IMG/VR virus record: IMGVR_UViG_3300021519_000044
Span: 1-30,737 of that record
DNA: 30,737 nt
Source: a virus
Direction: 5' to 3' (one strand)
This document shows positions 3,397 through 25,581 of the stretch, one piece after another. Below the pieces are notes generated by a model. The model saw nothing but the letters and a program-made list of their open reading frames with translations. It was not told the DNA's origin and searched no databases. The translations under genes and the position numbers were made by a program. Position 1 is the stretch's first letter. Each line of letters starts with the position of its first letter.

Positions 3397-3822
3397 ATGA
3401 ACAACGGCAAGCTTGTCACCCGCGCCGATTACGCCCACATGCTCATGGGGCTTGGCGTGAAGCTGGAAAACATCAATTTCTCCGCCGATGAATACTGGTG
3501 TCCGTCAAAGGAGTGGCTGCTCGATTTCGGCAAATGGGTGAGCTGGGATCGGCCCGACTTCACGGACAACGTGTTCGTGTGCTTTCAGTTCACTCGCATG
3601 GCGGCGGCTGAAGCGGATCGTTCCGCTCTGCGTGCCAACCTCAAAAACCATCATTCATTTGGTGAAGCATTAGTTACTTGGAACAACACATCCCATGAAA
3701 TCAATTTGTGCCTTTCCGACGACGGCATCCTGTATGCGTTCGATCCGCAGTGCTGCGAAGATCCTGAGACCATTGTGCCTGTTGGCGGGTCTGATTTTCG
3801 CGTTATCAAGTTCCGGGTGTAA
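3397..3822 (+). CDS. Papain-like protein resembling the MOA/Agglutinin_C domain
   Basis: 141 residues, starting two bases after the previous gene without SD. The layout recalls the C-terminal domain of the MOA lectin (Agglutinin_C, a papain-like fold): an N-terminal YWCPSKEWLLDFGKWV stretch, VFVCFQF with a Cys candidate nucleophile, SHEINLCLSD with a candidate His, and LYAFDPQ matching the usual acidic-Pro-Gln element. If right, it may be a cysteine peptidase or an inactive relative. Similar small proteins occur in phages, but the function is unknown. The assignment is by visual motif only. Confidence 0.5.
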   Translation: MNNGKLVTRADYAHMLMGLGVKLENINFSADEYWCPSKEWLLDFGKWVSWDRPDFTDNVFVCFQFTRMAAAEADRSALRANLKNHHSFGEALVTWNNTSHEINLCLSDDGILYAFDPQCCEDPETIVPVGGSDFRVIKFRV

Positions 3823-3882: not shown

Positions 3883-4380
3883 ATGAAAAAAATAAACCAA
3901 TTCACTGAAGAAGAAATAAACGCATTAAAGGATCTATTTTATTACAATCCTGAAACTGGAGAATTATTTCGGAAATTAAAAAGCAGACTCAAGCAAACGG
4001 GGTGGACGAATGGGCATGGTCACCTCATCACACATTTTCGGAATAAAATGTATTTTGTTCACAGAATAGCTTGGGCAATTTATTACGGAACAAACCCAAA
4101 AGAACAAATTGATCACAAAAACGGAGACGGCACTGACAATCGCATATTAAATCTTCGAGAAGCAACTAATCAGCAAAACAGTTTTAATACAAAATGCTTT
4201 ATAACTTCTAAATCAGGCATCAAGGGAGTTCATTGGCACAAACAAATAAAAAGGTGGCAAGCACAGATAACGATAAATGGCAAAAAAAAACATCTCGGTG
4301 TTTTTACATCAAAGGAAGAAGCGGTTTTAGCGTATCAAGCAAAAGCTAAAGAACTTCACGGGGAATTCTACCGGCCATGA
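3883..4380 (+). CDS. HNH homing endonuclease with AP2 DNA-binding domain
   Basis: 165 residues. The middle carries an HNH core: VHRIAWAIYYG, then IDHKNGDGTDNR and NLREATNQQNS. The C-terminal 55 residues form an AP2-type beta-sheet: GIKGVHWHKQIKRWQAQI, KKHLGVFTSKEEAV, YQAKAKELHG. HNH-AP2 proteins are typical free-standing homing endonucleases of phages; they nick or cut DNA near their own insertion site and spread laterally. The gene is visibly AT-rich: a hand count gives 22 G+C in 60 bases at 4201-4260, against 41 in 60 at 4381-4440 next door. This fits recent insertion. The leader is CAACAACAAC without SD, and the stop overlaps the primase start (ATGA). Confidence 0.9.
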   Translation: MKKINQFTEEEINALKDLFYYNPETGELFRKLKSRLKQTGWTNGHGHLITHFRNKMYFVHRIAWAIYYGTNPKEQIDHKNGDGTDNRILNLREATNQQNSFNTKCFITSKSGIKGVHWHKQIKRWQAQITINGKKKHLGVFTSKEEAVLAYQAKAKELHGEFYRP

Positions 4381-6185
4381 CACCAACCGAACGCGCAGTC
4401 CGGTGGCTTGAGTCCACGCCCGGAGCGGTCAGTGGTTCCGGCGGCCACAACGCCACATTCGCCGTGGCAACCGCATTGGTTCACGGGTTCTGCCTGGATG
4501 AGAACACTGCTCACTCGCTCATGGTAGAGCATTGGAACGGTAAGTGTCAGCCGCCTTGGACAGCACGGGACATAGCTCACAAAGTGTCCCAATCAGCCAC
4601 GGTAGGCCACAGCAAGCCTCGCGGGTGGATGCTCACGGAAAACGGGCTTCCGCCCGTCTCCGAGTCTAAGAAGTTCGTTTATCACAAGAACCCGGTCGCT
4701 ATCCCAGAACCCAAGGGGATGACGACCCGTGACTTCCTCATTCAAGCCTTCCTGCCCGAGGAGAAGGTCTGCATTTGCACGGACGTGGATGTCGATGAAG
4801 CGGGCAAGGCTCGTCCGGTCGGGCGCGGCACCTTTCAAACTCGTGAATGGTGGCTCGAGGAATACTTCTTCGATGGCGGCGAGATGGCGTCATTGTTCAG
4901 GCAGAAGGGAACCTACCTGCGGATTAACCCGTGCGCGGACGATACCGGATCCGACAATGGAGTTTCATCCTACCGGCATGTCTTGGTGGAATCCGACTCG
5001 TTGCCCAAGGAAGAGCAGAAAGCCGCGTTGCTGGCCTCCAAGCTGCCCTTCACGGCGTTAATCGACTCCGGGGGCAGTTCGATCCATGGATGGGTTCGCG
5101 TTGATGCCGCCGACCGCAAGGAATGGGAACAGCGGCGTGACGAGGTTTACAAGGCACTGGAGCACGTCGGCATCGACGCCAAGAACAAGAACGCCAGCCG
5201 GTTCAGTCGGTTGCCTGGGGCATTCCGAGATGGCGTGGAGCAGAAGCTCGTTGCCCTTCGGGTCGGTCCTCAGACGTGGGACGAGTACCTTGACGAGAAG
5301 GAGTCCGAAAACTTCCCCAAGCCGCTGCTCATCAGCAAGCTGGTGAAGTATGACAAGACCCTAGATACCGACAACATCATTGGCGACCGGTGGCTGCGCC
5401 GTGGGGGAAGTGTGATGCTGTGCGGCCAGACAGGCGTTGGAAAATCGTCGCTGCTCATGTCCCAAGCGATTAGCTGGGCATTGGGGATCCCGTGGTGGGG
5501 AATCGCAGTCCACAAGCCAATCAAGATCGGCATCATCCAGGCTGAGAACGACGAGGCTGACTTGGCCGACGCATTCCAAGGGTTGTGTTTCCATCATCGA
5601 AACGACTGGTCTCGCGAAACGGTTGAGGCCCTTGAGGACAAGGTGATCTTTTTCGAAATCAATGATCTGTGTGGAGAATCGTTCATTCGGTTCCTGCACA
5701 AGATCGTGATAAAGCACAAGCTGGACATGGTGTATATCGACCCGTTGATTGCGTACATCGGGGGCGACATTTCCAAGCAGGAACACGTCAGCGGTTTTCT
5801 CCGCCAAGGGCTTGCACCGATTCTAAAGCAAACCGGTGTGATCGCCAACGTGTTCCATCACTTCCCGAAGCCCAAGGGGAAGGACGAGCAGGCCACATCG
5901 ACGGCTGACATGGCCTACTCAGGCACCGGCTCAAGCGACCTCGCAAACTTCTTCCGAGAGGTCATTGTGCTTCGAGAGAACGGGTCAGCGGATCCGCGTG
6001 AGTTCACGCTTGCACTGACCAAGCGCGGCAATCGTGCGGGAATGGTGGATCATCTTGGGAACCCGGCGAAGACCATCAACATCCGACATTCGGCCTCCGG
6101 TTCGATGGCTTGGGAATACTGCGCTCCTCCCAAGTTCGTCGTGGACAGATCCAAATCCGAAAAGGGCAAGAGTTGGAAGCGTTAG
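4377..6185 (+). CDS. Primase-helicase: AEP-type primase fused to RecA-fold (RepA-like) ATPase
   Basis: 602 residues. Residues 1-85 are a helical domain like PriCT-type primase C-terminal domains (GGHNATFAVATALVHG, PPWTARDI). Residues 200-295 carry an archaeo-eukaryotic primase core: LVESDSLP (acidic motif I, 203-210), SGGSSIHGWV (S-G-x-x-x-x-H, 231-240) and SRFSRLPGAFR (274-284). Residues 335-550 are a RecA/RepA-like helicase: Walker A GQTGVGKS (350-357), Walker B MVYID (451-455) and a His-rich VFHHFPKPKG segment. It should prime and unwind DNA at the phage fork. No DNA polymerase is present here, so host or out-of-window polymerase is needed. It ends the left plus-strand block, converging on the minus operon with a 4-nt overlap. 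Confidence 0.88.
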   Translation: MTPTERAVRWLESTPGAVSGSGGHNATFAVATALVHGFCLDENTAHSLMVEHWNGKCQPPWTARDIAHKVSQSATVGHSKPRGWMLTENGLPPVSESKKFVYHKNPVAIPEPKGMTTRDFLIQAFLPEEKVCICTDVDVDEAGKARPVGRGTFQTREWWLEEYFFDGGEMASLFRQKGTYLRINPCADDTGSDNGVSSYRHVLVESDSLPKEEQKAALLASKLPFTALIDSGGSSIHGWVRVDAADRKEWEQRRDEVYKALEHVGIDAKNKNASRFSRLPGAFRDGVEQKLVALRVGPQTWDEYLDEKESENFPKPLLISKLVKYDKTLDTDNIIGDRWLRRGGSVMLCGQTGVGKSSLLMSQAISWALGIPWWGIAVHKPIKIGIIQAENDEADLADAFQGLCFHHRNDWSRETVEALEDKVIFFEINDLCGESFIRFLHKIVIKHKLDMVYIDPLIAYIGGDISKQEHVSGFLRQGLAPILKQTGVIANVFHHFPKPKGKDEQATSTADMAYSGTGSSDLANFFREVIVLRENGSADPREFTLALTKRGNRAGMVDHLGNPAKTINIRHSASGSMAWEYCAPPKFVVDRSKSEKGKSWKR

Positions 6186-10620: not shown

Positions 10621-11457
10621 TTATTCGCCAGTTCCGATACCGCCATACCCGCCAGTTTCCATTGCACCAGTCCAGTCAGAATATGGCGCACTGTACGACG
10701 GAGCATACCGACCAATGCTCCCATAAGTCGGGCGATAAGAGAACATGCTTGCCATGCCTCCGCCGCCGCCACCGCCGCCTCCCATGGCACGACCCATTAC
10801 CATCCCACCAATGTTGCTGATTGATCCACCAATCGCAGCCATCATCGGATCCGGCTGCGCGGCAACCTGCGCGGCCATCATGTCGCGTTGAAACATGGAC
10901 TGGTTCTCTTGAAGGGCAATGTTTAGCCTCTGGGAAGGCGAAATGAACATGCTCGAAACGGACATCGGATTGACAGTGGCTGCGCCTCGCTGGCTCTGAA
11001 TGAAGTTGAGCGAATTGCCGAATCCTTGCTGCTGGATGCCCATCGAAGTCAGACCAAGATCGCGAGCGGTAAGACTACGCCCCAGACCCGAACTCGCTCC
11101 GTACCCGCCAGCAAGTGCGCGAGCCGCCGAGGATCGTTGAACCTGTGCAGATACATCCGGGTTAATCTCTCCCCCAAGCTGGCTCTGGATGTTCTGAGAT
11201 GCTTTGGAAATGATTTGGTCATAGCCTGGAATTGCCTTTCGAAGCTGTTCAGTCAGTACCGCTTGATCCGCCGAGGTCGTCTTGGCGGCAAGCTGCGATG
11301 CCTGATCGAAGTTGGCCAAGTTGTTCTGAATGGCCTTCCTCTGTTCCCCCTCGACATCCACTTTCTGGAATTGGGGCACCTTGACCTTCTTCCCGGCGGA
11401 CATTGCCGCCCCGCCGATCATGGCCGCTGCCCCTACGCCTGCTGCGATAAGTCCCAT
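10621..11457 (-). CDS. Putative small ejection/virion protein, Gly-rich
   Basis: 278 residues. The N-terminus is a hydrophobic Gly/Ala helix (MGLIAAGVGAAAMIGGAAM) followed by a Lys-containing segment (KKVKVPQF), then a helical coiled region (35-110). The C-terminal third is Gly/Met-rich, with a run of nine glycines encoded by a GCC/GCC-type tract near 10757-10783, and then Tyr/Gly/Ser-rich low-complexity sequence. N-terminal membrane-like helices plus low-complexity tails fit P22 gp7-like ejection proteins. No catalytic motif is seen. It is co-oriented and tightly packed with the other two ejection candidates. Confidence 0.55.
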   Translation of the reverse strand: MGLIAAGVGAAAMIGGAAMSAGKKVKVPQFQKVDVEGEQRKAIQNNLANFDQASQLAAKTTSADQAVLTEQLRKAIPGYDQIISKASQNIQSQLGGEINPDVSAQVQRSSAARALAGGYGASSGLGRSLTARDLGLTSMGIQQQGFGNSLNFIQSQRGAATVNPMSVSSMFISPSQRLNIALQENQSMFQRDMMAAQVAAQPDPMMAAIGGSISNIGGMVMGRAMGGGGGGGGGMASMFSYRPTYGSIGRYAPSYSAPYSDWTGAMETGGYGGIGTGE

Positions 11458-11460
11458 AAA

Positions 11461-11997
11461 TTAAATGACCTCCTTCAAGGTTTTTTGTCCGTTCTCAACC
11501 GAGAAAACAATTTCAGGATTCATTCGTTGAATGTTCATGGAAATGAAGAACTTAGCCTTCTCCTCAGAGAAGAACTCTTCATTTCCAAAACAGTAAACCC
11601 AAATTGCCTTGAGAATGCCAGCGTTGAAAACCTCCGAGTAGTCGAATTTCAAACCCTCTTTTGACCATTCAAGAACTTGGTCATAGCAAAAATCCATAGA
11701 GGAAGCATCGACAGCGTATCCGAACGCTTTGGTGGCGCACTTTGACGACTCTTCCGGCTTCCGGGTCAACCCAATCCGCTTGGAGCCTTCAATGGTGGCT
11801 TTAGGCAACCACCCGTAAGTGGTGCTGTCCACGACGTAATCCCACCGTTCAAGCTGGTTATTCAGCGTGTCTTTCCAATTCGAATCCGTGGCGACAAGCT
11901 CATGGTTGGAAACGCACTTTGGATGCGTGGACAAAAACGCCGCAAGAAAAGCGGTTCCACTTCTGGGAACTCCTGCGATTTGAATCAGGACCGACAT
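11461..11997 (-). CDS. Small P-loop sulfotransferase-like protein
   Basis: 178 residues from ATG 11997 (MSVLIQIAGV); a GGGGAGG lies just upstream, although only 3 nt away, and an alternative ATG at 12009 adds four residues. The PAPS-binding 5' loop is clear: GVPRSGTAFLAAFLSTHP (9-26). A 3'-phosphate element is plausible at GLTRKPEESSKCATKAFG (76-93), with Arg79 and Ser84/85. Family enzymes transfer sulfate from PAPS to glycans, proteins or small molecules. It is shorter than most family members, so the acceptor domain is minimal. It overlaps the upstream citrate-synthase-like gene by 13 nt and precedes the ejection genes, which is an odd place for an enzyme. Confidence 0.75.
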   Translation of the reverse strand: MSVLIQIAGVPRSGTAFLAAFLSTHPKCVSNHELVATDSNWKDTLNNQLERWDYVVDSTTYGWLPKATIEGSKRIGLTRKPEESSKCATKAFGYAVDASSMDFCYDQVLEWSKEGLKFDYSEVFNAGILKAIWVYCFGNEEFFSEEKAKFFISMNIQRMNPEIVFSVENGQKTLKEVI

Positions 11998-12548
11998 AGA
12001 CCTCCCCATGCTGGAATTCTGGAAATGATGAACACTGCCGACTCAAAACCGTGAGCGACACCAATCTCGGAACATGCGGCGGCAGTGAACAATGCGGCGT
12101 TCGGGTAAATCTTTTTGCCAACTGTCAATTCCACAAATCTGCCGAGTTCTTGAATCCGGGCATACACAGTTGGGAATTTGTTATTCAGAAAAACGTCAAC
12201 TCGCATCCAAGCCGGGTCAATTGAATCTTTGAAAAAGGAGTTTCCAAATCCAGGCACTTTTCCGCCAACCTGTATCCATTGACGAACCGAATCCTCGGTG
12301 AAGTTTTCGTACACCATTCGCGCATCGGAAATCGGGCCATGATGCTTTCCGAGGGTCAAAATTGCGGAAGCCACTCCATTTGAGAACGATCCGCTACCGG
12401 AAAGCGCATTCACGCAAGCTGCTGAACTGGCATTTTGATTGGTAGTCGCAGCAAGGTCGTGAGCCTTTATGACCTCGTTCAAAAGGAGAAGACCCGATTC
12501 CGTGATCGGTTTTTCCAAGAATCGCTCAAATGGAATTTCCAGAAGCAT
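11985..12548 (-). CDS. Citrate-synthase-fold protein with altered catalytic residues
   Basis: 187 residues. The C-terminal 140 follow the citrate synthase / citryl-CoA lyase order: ILTLGKHHGPISDA (63-76), GGKVPGFGNSFFKDSIDP (95-112), VGKKIYPNAALF (143-154) and VFIISRIPAWGG (172-183). Against pig citrate synthase by eye, the His274-type position is kept (His69/70). The His320 position in PGFGH is Asn103, the Asp375 position in YPNVD is Ala152, and the Arg after DP is Ala113. Arg177 of the SR motif is kept. It is about half the length of a normal synthase, nearer to citryl-CoA lyase size. It is coupled (TAATG) to the connector gene. I infer a repurposed or inactive fold, not a TCA enzyme. Confidence 0.75.
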   Translation of the reverse strand: MLLEIPFERFLEKPITESGLLLLNEVIKAHDLAATTNQNASSAACVNALSGSGSFSNGVASAILTLGKHHGPISDARMVYENFTEDSVRQWIQVGGKVPGFGNSFFKDSIDPAWMRVDVFLNNKFPTVYARIQELGRFVELTVGKKIYPNAALFTAAACSEIGVAHGFESAVFIISRIPAWGGLCRS

Positions 12549-13579
12549 TAGTAAATTGTGTTCAATCCACCACCGGAAATGTTCATGCCGACCATGCGAA
12601 TCGGGGCGACCGCGTCACCGAGGAATTGCATAGTCTGTTCCTGAAGCGTTTGCACAGCCTTGTTTTCGTACAGAACGGCCTCCGGTAGAAGATCGTTCTC
12701 TTCCTTTCGAATCGCCTGAACCATGAGTTTGATCGCATCCGGACAAGGAGGAATTACAAGGTCATTGTCTTGGCTGACCGGAATGTGGCGGAGCTTGGCC
12801 ATTACCGTGACCGGAATGGTTCCATCGGTGGTGCATCCGCCAGTCGATCCGCTGGTGGGCGTGCAGTTGATCGGCATCATGCTCTTGCGGTACTCCGGAA
12901 GAGTTTCGTCCGGGTCGTACACGGCAATGTCGATCTCAAGCGTGGTCGTGGTGTTGTACTCGTAGAGCCTTGACACCGTATTGGTCGCCTCGCGAATGAC
13001 CGTGGTGAGCGAAGTGAAGTAGTTGGTAGTTTGGCAGAACGGCATGGCCAGGGCGATGCGCTCGCCGTCAATCCAGGCACCTCCGGGTCCAGTGGTGGTT
13101 CGGATCCAGTTACCGTTTTGATCGTACCCTTGCAAGGTGATGTATTTGCCAGCGTCCGAGGAATCGCCGGGGTACGTCCGGATCTTGCTCGTCGTGTTTC
13201 CCGACAATTCCTTGTAGGAACAGACCGACCCCTTATCGAGCAGGTTGGAACCGGAATAGTACGCTCCACCCCAAGGGGTCACTTCCGTTCCGCCGGATTG
13301 CAGTCCGAATCCGCCCTCAAGGAATTCAAACCATTGATTGCGAACTTGGCCCACCCCGAAGCAGGTCGCCACGGATTCGATGGTCTCGATCATGCGCGGC
13401 CAAACGATGCAGCCGTCTGTGGTATAGATCGTGAATCGACCGTAGCACCCGGCCCACAAGCCTTTGTTGAGCAAGCGTCGGATCGCCTCATTGGTGTAAG
13501 AAGCTACGCGAGCGTCGTCCACGCAGAACCCAAGCACGCGAGCGACAAGAGGCTTAACTTGCGAGAAAAGGAGTTTCAT
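12548..13579 (-). CDS. Putative head-tail connector / neck protein
   Basis: 343 residues. The N-terminal helical part (YTNEAIRRLLNKGLWAGCYG) is followed by beta-rich sequence (RFTIYTTDGCIVWPR, VRNQWFEFLEGG) and repeated strands. The C-terminal helices (AIKLMVQAIRKEENDLL, VQTLQEQTMQFLG) resemble adaptor proteins that pack at the portal. Comparable proteins in podovirus-like genomes lie beside collar and tail genes. No enzyme motif is visible. The start overlaps the collar gene stop by 4 nt and the stop shares one base with the citrate-synthase-like start, so all three are translationally coupled. The exact counterpart (P22 gp4/gp10-like or other) is uncertain. Confidence 0.55.
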   Translation of the reverse strand: MKLLFSQVKPLVARVLGFCVDDARVASYTNEAIRRLLNKGLWAGCYGRFTIYTTDGCIVWPRMIETIESVATCFGVGQVRNQWFEFLEGGFGLQSGGTEVTPWGGAYYSGSNLLDKGSVCSYKELSGNTTSKIRTYPGDSSDAGKYITLQGYDQNGNWIRTTTGPGGAWIDGERIALAMPFCQTTNYFTSLTTVIREATNTVSRLYEYNTTTTLEIDIAVYDPDETLPEYRKSMMPINCTPTSGSTGGCTTDGTIPVTVMAKLRHIPVSQDNDLVIPPCPDAIKLMVQAIRKEENDLLPEAVLYENKAVQTLQEQTMQFLGDAVAPIRMVGMNISGGGLNTIY

Positions 13580-14322
13580 TTCGCGTAATAGATTCGCGCG
13601 GTGCGCTTGATGAAATAGACGCCGTAGAACGGAGGCAGGTTGTTGTGGGCCACTGTGTTGCCGCTTGTATCTCCACCGAACGAATTAGTCGTTTTTAGAT
13701 CAATCGTGCTTTCAGGATTTGCAAGATTGGTTGCGGCAAGGAAGTCCGCAGATCCACGTTGCGCTTTTTCAGCCCCTTGATTTTCAATGACGTGAGTATG
13801 GGAAGGGATTTCGGCAGCCAGCAAAACATGCTTATCCTCACCAACAACGGAAGTGTTTGTGGTACTTTGGCCAACAGAAACAACGCCGCTATTCGTAAAT
13901 GTTCCGACACCAACGGGGAACACTGCGGACATTGCGGTGTCCACTTCCCACATTGGACCGGCAGCAGCGTAAACCGTGGAAGTGCCGTCACCGCCATCGT
14001 AGGAAAGAAGTGCGGTAGTCGATCCCACCCAGATCCGTCGTTCAGAGCTACCCGCTGCGGAAGGATTGATTCTAATCCAAGCAGTGTATGCCGTGCTCCA
14101 TACCCACCAATTCCCATCGGTATCAAGCCAAGGATAAATTCTATTGTCCGCAGTAGGTGCCGAACTTCCCGTGTTAAAAAATGAATTTCCAACAGTGAGA
14201 TTAAACTGCGCCACCGTTTGTCCGATCAGGTCATTGGCAAGGGTCTGGTAGCTGCTTGGGCAGTAGTTGACCGGCAACGTCGGAGGCGTCAACGAAATCA
14301 ATGTGGTTTGAAGGGTCGGCAT
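13576..14322 (-). CDS. Phage tail collar-like fibre protein
   Basis: 248 residues. The C-terminal half carries the tail-collar signature: LLAAEIPSHTHVIENQG, then a Gly/Ser/Asn-rich stretch, then AHNNLPPFYGVYFIKRTA at the end. These His-rich motifs form the receptor-contacting tip in collar-domain fibres. The N-terminal part has a DTDGNWWVWS segment and strand-rich sequence consistent with attachment to the tail. It sits between the connector gene and the large tail protein. A role in adsorption is inferred from the family. Confidence 0.75.
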   Translation of the reverse strand: MPTLQTTLISLTPPTLPVNYCPSSYQTLANDLIGQTVAQFNLTVGNSFFNTGSSAPTADNRIYPWLDTDGNWWVWSTAYTAWIRINPSAAGSSERRIWVGSTTALLSYDGGDGTSTVYAAAGPMWEVDTAMSAVFPVGVGTFTNSGVVSVGQSTTNTSVVGEDKHVLLAAEIPSHTHVIENQGAEKAQRGSADFLAATNLANPESTIDLKTTNSFGGDTSGNTVAHNNLPPFYGVYFIKRTARIYYAK

Positions 14323-22017: not shown

Positions 22018-22641
22018 TTAGATTCCGAAAATTGAAGAAGGCCACGAATTGTCTCCGGTTCTTTGCCGGAACAATGTCGGAGTTGCTGCAAGGTGTCCCA
22101 AAAATGGGTACACCCTTTGGAGAAGCATGATATCCATTGGGGAATTGATTGGACGCATCATCCGTATGGCTTGTTTGGCTGTTTCTTTTCTCCACCAAAT
22201 TGCTCCAGAACTAAACGGGTACCCAATCTTTGAAAGGTTTTCGGAAACCTTTTGATTTGGTTTCCCGCTTTCAAATGCATGTTCAAGTTGAACGCATCCA
22301 ATGTTGTGTGGAATTTCAGATCTGATCTGATTCCATCGTTTTTTCCAATCTTCAGGAACAACAAGATCATCTTCGATGATGATGAATTCTTCATGACCTT
22401 GAGCCACCAAAACACTCATGATTGCGAGATGAGAAAGAACGCATGATATTTGAGGCCCAGTAATCCAAGAGCTGTCTCCACTTTCATTTATGTAATGAGA
22501 CATTGATGCCTGAAGACCAAGTAATGACCCATTAAAAGCGTCAACAAACGTAACCGGAAACTTCATTTCATTGAAATGCTGTTCCGATATTGCTCGTTTC
22601 CAAGGCTGATCGGGAACTGTAATGCAATAAATTGGAATCAT
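22018..22641 (-). CDS. Glycosyltransferase family 25-like protein
   Basis: 207 residues. The N-terminus (MIPIYCITVPDQPWKRA) and the GT25 core are clear: TGPQISCVLSHLAIMSVLVA (61-80), then EFIIIEDDLVVPEDW (85-99) with the EDD metal/nucleotide-sugar motif, and later SSGAIWW followed by ETAKQAI. GT25 enzymes act in LPS and capsule or glycoprotein galactosylation. It is shorter than typical members but holds the conserved core. The gene is visibly AT-rich compared with the portal gene. It lies 53 bases downstream of the other glycosyltransferase and probably shares its transcript. Confidence 0.8.
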   Translation of the reverse strand: MIPIYCITVPDQPWKRAISEQHFNEMKFPVTFVDAFNGSLLGLQASMSHYINESGDSSWITGPQISCVLSHLAIMSVLVAQGHEEFIIIEDDLVVPEDWKKRWNQIRSEIPHNIGCVQLEHAFESGKPNQKVSENLSKIGYPFSSGAIWWRKETAKQAIRMMRPINSPMDIMLLQRVYPFLGHLAATPTLFRQRTGDNSWPSSIFGI

Positions 22642-22694
22642 TTGTAATCAACGTGAACCAGCATTGTTGATTTCGGAAAACAATGGGTAAATGT

Positions 22695-23609
22695 TTATAA
22701 AAACTTCAGAGGGGTTCCGGTGTACCATTCATGCTCAGGGATTCCGACGACTGGAAACGGTTCGCCAGCAAGCACTCGCTTCCTGAGTCCCGCAATGCCT
22801 TCATCGCCAAAATAGTTGGGATGATACTTGCTGCGAAGTGCAGTGTTCAAAACTGCATGGCTTTTGTCGTCGGGAGAGTTCCCGAAATCTTTTCTTTTGA
22901 ACACAACATTTGAATGGTGACCCTCCTCGGATTCCCACGTCATCATTCCTTTGTGATATTGGAAGTGTACGCCAATGTTGCCCAGCATGATGCCCATGAT
23001 GCAGTCCTCAAAACCCATTCCATCGCACAGAGCTTCAGGCCATCCTCCAACTTGGATCAACCTTTCAACAGGAGCGCACAAAGAGCATCCATACAGCCAG
23101 TTTCCGGCGCAAGATGCCGGGGTTGAGTTTGCGTTTCTATTGTCATATCCAGACGGGTTATCCTTGTAATGCGTAACCACTCCGGTGACGGGTTCCACGG
23201 TAAGCTCAAAGACCTTTCGGTAAGCACCAAGCGTAATCAGCCCCGTCTTGGATGCTTCCGCGACTGCATCGACCCATCCAGGCATCAACACGCTCAAGTC
23301 GTCGCAATAGACAATGTGACCGTCCGGAGCCAAGCAGAGGGCCGTGTTGCGAGCATTCGATGCGGCAAACCAGTTGTCCTTTGTCAGTCGATGCGGTCCC
23401 TGCCATACGCACGGCTTTGGCGGCACATGAATCACATTGAACTTGGCCATCAAGTCCTTGAATTCCTTCGGCCTAGTCAGGCAATGGAAATCGACCACAA
23501 CAAGCTGTGAATCGGGAATCTTTTCTTTGAAACCTTGGTGATGAAGAGAGTCGAGAAACCACTCAATATGCGGCTCTTCTCGATTCGTCATGTAGCAGAT
23601 TGTGACCAT
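22695..23609 (-). CDS. GT-A fold glycosyltransferase (family 2-like)
   Basis: 304 residues. The N-terminal strand (MVTICYMTNREEPHIEWFLDSL) is typical of GT-A enzymes. It is followed by FAASNARNTALCLAPDG (81-97) and HIVYCDDLSVLMPGW (98-112), where DD103-104 supplies the DxD-like metal site. A later GWPEALCDGMGFEDCIMG segment resembles the acceptor/base region of GT2-type or galactosyltransferase-like enzymes, followed by a His-rich portion (WESEEGHHSN). It should transfer a sugar from a nucleotide donor; donor and acceptor cannot be read. It diverges from the methyltransferase across a 65-base spacer and heads the two-gene minus unit. Confidence 0.78.
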   Translation of the reverse strand: MVTICYMTNREEPHIEWFLDSLHHQGFKEKIPDSQLVVVDFHCLTRPKEFKDLMAKFNVIHVPPKPCVWQGPHRLTKDNWFAASNARNTALCLAPDGHIVYCDDLSVLMPGWVDAVAEASKTGLITLGAYRKVFELTVEPVTGVVTHYKDNPSGYDNRNANSTPASCAGNWLYGCSLCAPVERLIQVGGWPEALCDGMGFEDCIMGIMLGNIGVHFQYHKGMMTWESEEGHHSNVVFKRKDFGNSPDDKSHAVLNTALRSKYHPNYFGDEGIAGLRKRVLAGEPFPVVGIPEHEWYTGTPLKFL

Positions 23610-23674
23610 GATTTCTTAAGTTGACTTTTGTTGGCTTGCTGGGAATTGTGATTCCGAAACAACAAGATCATTCA
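23610..23674. promoter_or_regulatory. Divergent intergenic spacer with possible promoter and small palindrome
   Basis: Sixty-five bases separate the glycosyltransferase (minus) and methyltransferase (plus) starts, the largest divergent gap in the window and the likely site for promoters of both. A TTGACT at 23621-23626 resembles a -35 box, but a spacing-matched -10 at 23644 (AATTGT) is poor. A small inverted repeat GGAAT-TGTG-ATTCC lies at 23642-23655 and could be an operator or a hairpin. No SD precedes either start. Confidence 0.35.
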
Positions 23675-24304
23675 ATGATTCCCTCCGATCTTCAAGCTCG
23701 CATCCTTAATCAACTGCCCAAAATGAACGGGTGGTGTGACCCCAAAAAAGCCCTGGATCTAGCCGAGGCAGTGATTGCGTCCAAGCCGTCTGTATGCGTC
23801 GAAATCGGCGTGTTCGCCGGTAAGTCGCTCATCGCAACGGCAATGGCACTTGAGTATGTTGGGTCCGGCAAGGTTTGGGGTATTGATCCTTGGGCACTGG
23901 CCGACTGCTTGGTGGATGAGAATGAGGAGAACAAAAAGTGGTGGTCGCAAGATGTGAATTTGGAGTCCATTTTTGCTGAAGCCTTGAAGCACCTTAGCGA
24001 CAACGGGCTTCTCAACAAGCACGCAGAATTGATCCGGCAATCTTCTTTGACCGCATGGCGCGGTTGGCCTGCCGACACTCACCAGATCGACATCCTTCAC
24101 ATTGACGGCAATCACTCAGAGTGGGCCAGTAGCACGGATGTGGTCCTTTGGCTTCCGTATCTCAAGAGAGGCGGAACACTGTTCATGGATGATTACGACT
24201 GGGAATCGACTCAGACCGCAAAGAAACTCATTGAACGGCAGTGCGTTTTGGTGCGTGAAGAAAAGCTGCCGGAAAGCCACTATGCGGTTTATCGCAAGAA
24301 ATAA
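23675..24304 (+). CDS. Class I SAM-dependent methyltransferase (Methyltransf_24-like)
   Basis: 209 residues from ATG 23675 (MIPSDLQARI); a TTG 54 bases upstream would only add a weak N-terminus. Motif I is VCVEIGVFAGKSLIATAMA (40-58), followed by GIDPW (69-73), the acidic SAM-binding position. The mid-region DILHIDGNHSEWASSTDV and RGGTLFMDDYDWE match the Methyltransf_24 pattern seen in sugar and cell-surface biosynthesis clusters. The acceptor is unknown. It sits in the carbohydrate island, so O-methylation of a glycan is the simplest guess, but protein or small-molecule methylation is possible. Confidence 0.8.
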   Translation: MIPSDLQARILNQLPKMNGWCDPKKALDLAEAVIASKPSVCVEIGVFAGKSLIATAMALEYVGSGKVWGIDPWALADCLVDENEENKKWWSQDVNLESIFAEALKHLSDNGLLNKHAELIRQSSLTAWRGWPADTHQIDILHIDGNHSEWASSTDVVLWLPYLKRGGTLFMDDYDWESTQTAKKLIERQCVLVREEKLPESHYAVYRKK

Positions 24305-24306
24305 AT

Positions 24307-25581
24307 ATGCGCGACATCATCCGCGATCTCGCATTGAGAAGTTTGAAAAATTTCGTAGGAATCAACAACGATTACGCGGCGCAGCTTAAGGAAATCAGTG
24401 AACTCAAACGACTGATTGAAGAACGAGAAACCCACTGGGAAAAACGTCAGTCAGAATTGATTGAAGACCGCGACAAGTGGTTGAGCCTCTACGACAAAGC
24501 ACAATTCGCAGCAGATTACCTCATGGAACACGCCAAAAACGACGTACCATCTATCACGGAACAGACAAGCTGGCCGGTCAAGATTTTCGACCTCAAGCCC
24601 GAACCAAATGTCTGCTATTTCAATCCGTCGATTTGCAAACTGGCAAACGGTCGCGTGTTCATGTTTGTTCGCCGAAACTCCAATCGTGGCGGACAGGAAG
24701 GAACCAAGTTTTCGCAGCACAACGACATCGTCGCGTTCGAAATGGACCCGCAAACAATGGAGCCGATTGGTCAGAAGCGAATCATTTCACTCAAGGAAAA
24801 CCATGTCGGAGAACACTTTGAAGACCCGCGAGTCCTGGCTGTCGGGAATTCTATCTGGCTGTCGGTCTCGTCCTTCGTGTGGCGAAAGTCCTACACTCAC
24901 CAAGCGTTCTTCCAGCTTGATCAAAACCTGCAATGCACCCTTCGAATTGATCCTGTCTATGGAAAGAATTTCATGCAGGCCACTGTCAACGAAGGGCATG
25001 AAAAGAACTGGCTATTTTTCCCACATGGAGGAACCCCGCACTTCATTTACAACACGCATCCCCATACGGTTTTGCAGTGTGACGGATCTTTGTCCGTTAT
25101 ACAGAAGCACGAAACATGGGAGACAAATCCTCTTTGGAAGCATGGTCACCCTCGCGGCGGCAGCGTTCCTGTTTTGGTTGATGGTCAGTATTGGAGCTTC
25201 TTCCATTCCAGCCTTCCTTGGACCCTAGAGAAACGCCGGTACCACATGGGTGTGTACTCGTTTGAGCCGCAGGCTCCGTTCCGAATCACTTCGATGACGA
25301 GCCTTCCCCTGTTGACAGGTTCCAACAAAGATCCTTGGTATCCCTTGCTTCCTCTCGTTGTGTTCCCTGGCGGAGCGATCTACGACGAGAAAACGGATCT
25401 GTGGACCGTGGTATTGGGCGTCAACGATTTGGATTGCGCAAAGCTCACCATCCCACACGCTGACGTGAAAGCCTTGGTTCGACCTGTGCGCGTCAAGATT
25501 GATGAGCCGGAAAACAAGGTGGACGAATTCGAAATCGTTCCGGCGATCCAACAAAACATTGAATTGAAACCGAAAGCATGA
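24307..25581 (+). CDS. GH130-like five-bladed beta-propeller with N-terminal coiled coil
   Basis: 424 residues. Residues 15-65 are a charged coiled coil (ELKRLIEERETHWEKRQSEL). From about 90 on, propeller elements resemble GH130 mannoside phosphorylases and related glycosidases: CYFNPSICKLANGRVFMFVR, EHFEDPRVLAVG, NWLFFPHGGTPHFIYNTHP, HPRGGSVPVLVDGQYWSFFH and FPGGAIYDE near the last blade. These families cleave or phosphorolyse mannose- or glucose-containing oligosaccharides in an Asp/Glu-dependent way. The catalytic residue cannot be fixed by eye. The coiled coil may trimerise it or attach it to the virion, in which case it could be a depolymerase. It starts 2 bases after the methyltransferase. 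Confidence 0.7.
   Translation: MRDIIRDLALRSLKNFVGINNDYAAQLKEISELKRLIEERETHWEKRQSELIEDRDKWLSLYDKAQFAADYLMEHAKNDVPSITEQTSWPVKIFDLKPEPNVCYFNPSICKLANGRVFMFVRRNSNRGGQEGTKFSQHNDIVAFEMDPQTMEPIGQKRIISLKENHVGEHFEDPRVLAVGNSIWLSVSSFVWRKSYTHQAFFQLDQNLQCTLRIDPVYGKNFMQATVNEGHEKNWLFFPHGGTPHFIYNTHPHTVLQCDGSLSVIQKHETWETNPLWKHGHPRGGSVPVLVDGQYWSFFHSSLPWTLEKRRYHMGVYSFEPQAPFRITSMTSLPLLTGSNKDPWYPLLPLVVFPGGAIYDEKTDLWTVVLGVNDLDCAKLTIPHADVKALVRPVRVKIDEPENKVDEFEIVPAIQQNIELKPKA

Follow-up and report, generated by a model that had tools for sequence, protein, structure and literature searches.

What does a virus gain from a protein with the fold of citrate synthase but an altered active site, encoded among its late genes? 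This question is raised by a 30,737-nucleotide stretch of metagenomic viral DNA (IMG/VR record IMGVR_UViG_3300021519_000044, positions 1 to 30,737; hereafter the window), for which an initial annotation, made from the sequence, had proposed a repurposed domain, perhaps a CoA/nucleotide binder or a virion component, in place of a TCA enzyme. When a metabolic fold turns up in a viral metagenome, it is usually annotated as an auxiliary metabolic gene supplying an enzyme activity. Here that annotation would mislead, because Pfam counts the family as an enzyme, yet the chemistry has been removed in a conserved fashion.

A partial citrate synthase fold with replaced catalytic residues

The gene is a real open reading frame with an ATG start (12548→11985, minus strand, 187 aa). 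Its product matched the Pfam profile Citrate_synt (PF00285) with an E-value of 1.6e-8 and a score (34.5 bits) that exceeds the gathering cut-off (27), over profile positions 180–340, which correspond to the small domain and the adjoining helices of the large domain; the same profile was matched by all 13 family representatives and by members from a T7-like phage lineage (see below). When the PDB was searched with the single sequence, the best match was the citryl-CoA lyase 6hxp (E 9.5e-10), and a 13-sequence family profile placed Thermotoga citrate synthase 2p2w at the top (E 3.4e-13). An AlphaFold2 model computed from 35 family sequences (pLDDT 90.4, pTM 0.87) was identified by Foldseek as a citrate synthase fold, partial only, with 6hxp first (TM 0.76, E 2.8e-7) and citrate and 2-methylcitrate synthases following. 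Against the NCBIfam citryl-CoA lyase subfamily NF004869 the protein scored 38 bits, the cut-off being 212. By profile and by fold, the 187-residue protein is a member of the citrate synthase superfamily, as the initial annotation had claimed; the structure prediction returned that fold and not a different one.

In the citrate synthase of M. sedula, the active site is formed by His214 (catalytic), His253, Arg262, Asp307, Arg332 and, from the partner subunit, Arg351' (PMC6386500). In our alignment the corresponding motifs of the phage protein pair as PGFG-N103 for PGxG-H, DP-A113 for DPR and N-A-A152 for N-V-D, and the codons of Asn103, Ala113 and Ala152 were read straight from the minus-strand DNA (Table 1). 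Alignment and codons together bear out the earlier assignment of Asn103 to pig His320, Ala152 to pig Asp375 and Ala to the DPR arginine, and no alignment was obtained in which all three catalytic residues are present, Asn103 and Ala152 replacing His and Asp. The catalytic His-His-Asp set is incomplete, with His70 kept and the other two replaced. The carboxylate-binding arginines are incomplete as well: Arg177 is kept, the DPR arginine is Ala and the C-terminal arm is absent, the equivalent of Arg351' falling past the end of the 187-residue protein. Also kept across the family are Asn150, the PGFG loop, Asn37, Asn39, Ser41, Ser42 and Asn47, and the conserved PGFG loop sits in the small domain, which in citrate synthase forms the acetyl-CoA pocket (PMC6386500). 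In Caulobacter CitA, changing only the residue that matches the lost His was enough to destroy enzyme function (PMC7083601).

Table 1. Positions of the citrate-synthase-like gene, its diagnostic codons and its neighbours in the window.
Feature	Positions	Strand	Basis and remarks
Citrate-synthase-fold protein, 187 aa, catalytic residues replaced	11985..12548	-	Pfam PF00285, PDB profile match, AlphaFold/Foldseek, family alignment
Asn103 codon (AAC), catalytic His position of PGxGH (pig His320)	12240..12242	-	Alignment; family-invariant
Ala113 codon (GCT), DPR Arg position	12210..12212	-	Alignment; nearly all Ala, L002 Ser, L156 Gln
Ala152 codon (GCA), catalytic Asp position of NVD (pig Asp375)	12093..12095	-	Alignment; Asp in one exception, L122
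His70 codon, kept catalytic-type His (pig His274, M. sedula His214)	12339..12341	-	Invariant
Arg177 codon, kept carboxylate-binding-type Arg (M. sedula Arg332)	12018..12020	-	Invariant
Cassette partner, sulfotransferase-like P-loop protein, 182 aa, overlapping ORF	11461..12009	-	Sulfotransfer_3 below cut-off; P-loop fold; co-occurrence
Upstream flank gene ('connector' of the initial annotation), kept with or without the cassette	12548..13579	-	No Pfam or PHROG match
Downstream flank gene, 278 aa, presumed virion/ejection; joins the upstream flank gene directly in cassette-free phages	10621..11457	-	

A phage-only family in two gene contexts

Searched with the single sequence, IMG/VR yielded one near-copy, and three scans with alignments returned 141, 136 and 148 relatives, the same contigs recurring between scans. 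All phage sequences come from metagenomic contigs, many of them fragmentary. Loci were drawn from the best 80 per scan and overlap between scans, so the frequencies given here describe the sampled neighbourhood and not nature; exact flank-gene duplicates were removed for one count only. The diagnostic positions read Asn / Ala / Ala-Ala in 204 of 210 loci entries, which are not independent because they include re-fetched loci; the exceptions were DPS (L002), DPQ with NPA (L156) and NAD (L122), the rest being cut or not fully motif-readable. Across the family Asn103 is invariant, Ala152 has one exception and Ala113 a few. Only the gene at 3618–4184 of L122 encodes Asp in place of Ala152 (PNAD), and its Asn103 and Ala113 positions are still replaced.

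Within the main subfamily the median dN/dS was 0.08 (332 pairs), indicating purifying selection. Invariant positions accounted for 20/45 in the pocket segments versus 20/142 elsewhere, with a p value (4e-5) that is generous because the segments were picked post hoc, after the motifs had been seen, and the sequences are related; in two presumed interface helices, 5/24 positions were invariant. A tree was built from 11 phage and 31 cellular or PDB sequences. It placed the phage clade on one side of a branch with support of 100/99; the cellular and PDB sequences carried the His and DPR in all cases and, almost without exception, NVD (one ANVE, two motif-unreadable).

Among isolate phages (INPHARED genomes) there was no credible relative, the sole match (E 0.04) being an annotated gltA in a 254-kb record. 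PHROGs v4 gave nothing above noise for the citrate-synthase-like protein, BFVD gave no credible match, and 84,980 cellular genomes searched with phage-type patterns yielded no close relative; with citrate-synthase-type patterns, the best matches in cellular genomes were 20–31% identical. None of the papers found by a literature search dealt with a phage pseudo-citrate-synthase. The family is a phage-only, conserved and catalytically dismantled branch of a known superfamily, and the libraries and papers searched contained no record of such a branch.

In the lineage of the window (longer contigs of ~38–46 kb; no isolate was found), the gene forms a two-gene cassette with a sulfotransferase-like partner. 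The starts are coupled, as first described: the stop of the upstream gene overlaps the ATG (TAATG), and the partner ORF begins inside the citrate-synthase-like gene with a 25-nt overlap. By contrast, Pfam and PHROGs lent no support to calling the upstream gene a 'connector'. Of 81 loci, 80 had the same two flank genes and the overlapping partner; in the other, the contig stops right there. In a sample fetched with the flank gene, and not selected for the cassette, the pair was found at 21 loci, the first gene followed by the contig end at one, the partner only at one and neither gene at 52, with five undetermined; both genes were thus missing from 52 of the 75 resolved loci. In cassette-free loci the flank genes adjoin directly, with 3–18 nt between them. 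At L003–L006 the pair is absent and the flank gene is 94–99% identical; for two of them, on contigs of 44 and 38 kb, no cassette copy lies elsewhere either. Five loci (L158, L200, L205, L207 and L271) carry the partner without the citrate-synthase-like gene, at junctions that resemble a clean deletion with the start region of that gene left behind; the citrate-synthase-like gene without its partner was not seen among window-lineage loci. When gene content was compared between 10 cassette-positive and 6 cassette-negative contigs, no other gene had a 10/0 split, and a co-varying third gene was rejected, as none tracks the cassette exactly in these 16 contigs.

The partner scored 24.1 bits against Sulfotransfer_3, for which the cut-off is 27, and 4 of 31 members matched. 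Its predicted fold is that of P-loop kinases and sulfotransferases, both of which were among the fold matches at TM ~0.5, and a sequence search of the PDB gave no match; profile and model hint weakly that it may be a sulfotransferase. The partner falls into two subfamilies, and it has probably moved between lineages, because the window's copy is 65% identical to that of L156 versus only 30% in the flank gene.

A scan led by L156 returned 12 loci of a second, T7-like lineage, in which contigs reach 67 kb and the citrate-synthase-like proteins are 35–39% identical to that of L156 and carry the same N/A/A substitutions. This lineage encodes a T7-type RNA polymerase (Pfam RNA_pol, E 3e-83), less than 60% identical to that of every isolate phage (26–28% in the matches listed), a T7 helicase-primase, ThyX and DUF932. 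In 12/12 loci the order is a calcineurin-like phosphoesterase, the citrate-synthase-like gene, a putative gp2.5-type SSB and ThyX; the SSB, which has no Pfam match, is taken as such by position and sequence. The citrate-synthase-like gene shows 47% identity versus 79–80% for the adjacent polymerase and phosphoesterase (L402–L425). Neither a sulfotransferase-like gene nor a relative of the window's terminase was found in 11 T7-like contigs; in the first lineage the partner model gave matches. Obligate partnership with the sulfotransferase-like protein was rejected as a general rule on this ground, and a shared phosphoesterase link was also rejected: the window's phosphoesterase (627–1376) has just 23% identity with its T7-like counterpart, is found at another place and does not follow the cassette in its distribution.

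The locus at 4414–6543 of L156 is a mosaic, combining a protein that groups with the T7-like lineage, a partner near the window's and flank genes that are ~30% identical. The citrate-synthase-like gene has probably moved between phage types, because in the tree the L156 protein groups with the T7-like lineage (97/94) while its gene context is of the window type.

Other features of the window were also recorded. A collar-like tail gene (13576–14322, minus strand; also in L002–L006) has a conserved N-terminal half and a C-terminal half that varies between near-identical phages, a pattern reminiscent of an exchangeable receptor-contact domain. The stretch 22018–25581, set between portal-like and scaffold-like genes, contains a glycosyltransferase 25 gene, a second glycosyltransferase-like gene, a Methyltransf_24 gene and a GH130-like gene, and the GT25-type and methyltransferase genes recur in most window-lineage contigs. 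A 165-aa ORF (3883–4380, plus strand) resembles, by eye, an HNH/AP2-type homing endonuclease. The window had no Rfam match and no tRNA, and a defence or anti-defence assignment was set aside, as PADLOC gave no match worth the name. One Verrucomicrobiota genome carries a distant relative of the flank gene on its chromosome, which gives only a hint of a Verrucomicrobiota host; one weak fragment from another phylum was disregarded. On that chromosome (L466, 2418–3011), the gene after the flank-gene relative is a different 197-aa ORF, which suggests that the position after the flank gene accepts varied cargo.

Possible roles of the protein

The reading that we prefer, and to which we give an even chance, is that this is a neofunctionalised, intracellular citrate-synthase-fold protein, exclusive to phages, with a remodelled pocket that would bind a small molecule. 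The protein is reduced to the small (CoA-binding-type) domain and the adjoining large-domain helices, and model and homology show that the fold has been kept, including the small domain of the acetyl-CoA pocket. The oxaloacetate/citrate site has been taken apart by one fixed set of changes (His to Asn, Arg to Ala, Asp to Ala) and lacks the partner-subunit Arg. From established chemistry, ordinary citrate synthesis or cleavage is unlikely, with two of the three catalytic residues and the DPR arginine substituted and no partner-subunit Arg. Since the catalytic residues are replaced alike almost every time, fold and pocket seem to have been kept for a job other than citrate making, and the strong constraint on the pocket suggests that it most likely binds something.

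As a first guess, CoA, acyl-CoA or a related adenine nucleotide may be the ligand, because the PGFG loop and Asn150 are kept; the pocket might then serve a different reaction or a ligand-controlled regulator of host metabolism. The gene context in the T7-like phages points to action within the infected cell, and the cassette pattern suggests that the protein is dispensable for the particle. It would act beside the sulfotransferase-like partner in the window lineage, and without it in the T7-like phages. Against this preferred reading, the arginines that bind the 3'-phosphate in citrate synthase lie in the N-terminal domain and are missing from the phage protein, which weakens a classical CoA mode; moreover, the conserved pocket residues could serve stability or a protein interface. 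Pocket geometry is taken here from the alignment and the fold match.

Of the initial proposal, the repurposed domain with a citrate synthase fold and an altered site, distinct from a TCA enzyme, has stood, the substitutions recurring in a phage-only clade under purifying selection; a CoA/nucleotide binder may prove right, given the PGFG loop in the domain of the acetyl-CoA pocket, and the virion component has not stood (see below). Going further, we tentatively suggest a phage-invented use of the fold: a pseudo-citrate-synthase of unrelated phages whose rebuilt pocket may support a new reaction, or ligand-gated control of host acetyl-CoA/TCA metabolism, with the sulfotransferase-like protein as an optional partner.

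The main rival, which we regard as unlikely, is a decoy or dominant-negative protein that keeps helices near the dimer interface and, during infection, would bind or poison the host citrate synthase or its non-catalytic signalling role. Helices matching the region before the small domain are retained in the model, the CitA variants H303A and H303W of Caulobacter provide cell-cycle control without catalysis (PMC7083601), and the gene diverges faster than its T7-like neighbours, as host-interaction proteins often do. However, 20–31% identity to cellular citrate synthases is low for a mixed dimer, and the constraint peaks in the pocket segments and not in the presumed interface helices.

That the protein is still an enzyme, a lyase or thioesterase acting on citryl-CoA-like or other acyl-CoA substrates with His70 as its main catalytic residue, seems less likely again. 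The replacement of the catalytic Asp and the second His in nearly all members and the score far under the citryl-CoA lyase subfamily cut-off both argue against it, even though His70 and Arg177 are invariant and citryl-CoA lyases are the closest single matches in PDB, NCBIfam and Foldseek.

Lower still we place an accessory subunit of the sulfotransferase-like partner, the two proteins forming one joint enzyme in which the citrate synthase fold would bind a substrate or nucleotide. The 80/80 co-occurrence and overlapping ORFs in the window lineage, where the gene was never found without its partner, speak for this, but the linkage may be the inheritance of one insertion, the partner persists alone in five loci, and the T7-like lineage lacks a partner gene.

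A virion component or ejected internal protein, the role first suggested by the position of the gene between presumed tail/ejection genes, is very improbable: gene and partner are missing from phages that are 94–99% identical in the adjacent gene, so the cassette is not a required virion part, and in T7-like phages the gene lies among replication genes. A decaying passenger gene without function, as truncation and catalytic alteration relative to citrate synthase might suggest, can be virtually discounted, and a pseudogene is rejected, given dN/dS of ~0.08, intact ORFs and near-invariant substitutions across lineages.

Comparison with known systems

The family is small and testable (~187 aa, with a confident model) for phage action on central carbon metabolism without the supply of an enzyme, and for whether a fold can persist for its ligand pocket after catalysis has been lost; it would rank as more than a superfamily branch if a new ligand or reaction were demonstrated. 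As an insertion, the cassette is like phage moron-type accessory insertions in being a block that is present or absent between two conserved late genes, and unlike them in that its ORFs overlap their neighbours.

As a protein, its best single sequence and fold match is the citryl-CoA lyase of Hydrogenobacter thermophilus (6hxp; NF004869), which is likewise a shortened citrate synthase fold; the phage protein is ~80 residues shorter, however, with the catalytic His, Asp and DPR arginine replaced and a score of 38 bits, far short of the family cut-off of 212. With the citrate and 2-methylcitrate synthases (PF00285, TIGR01800) it has in common the small domain, the PGxG and PN motifs, the first catalytic His and one Arg, but it is without the N-terminal half and the C-terminal arm, its site residues are replaced, and it belongs to a phage-only clade. 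Caulobacter CitA offers a precedent, since it has a cell-cycle role that does not depend on catalysis (PMC7083601); CitA is a full, active enzyme, unlike the phage protein, and the likeness between the two is at the level of the superfamily.
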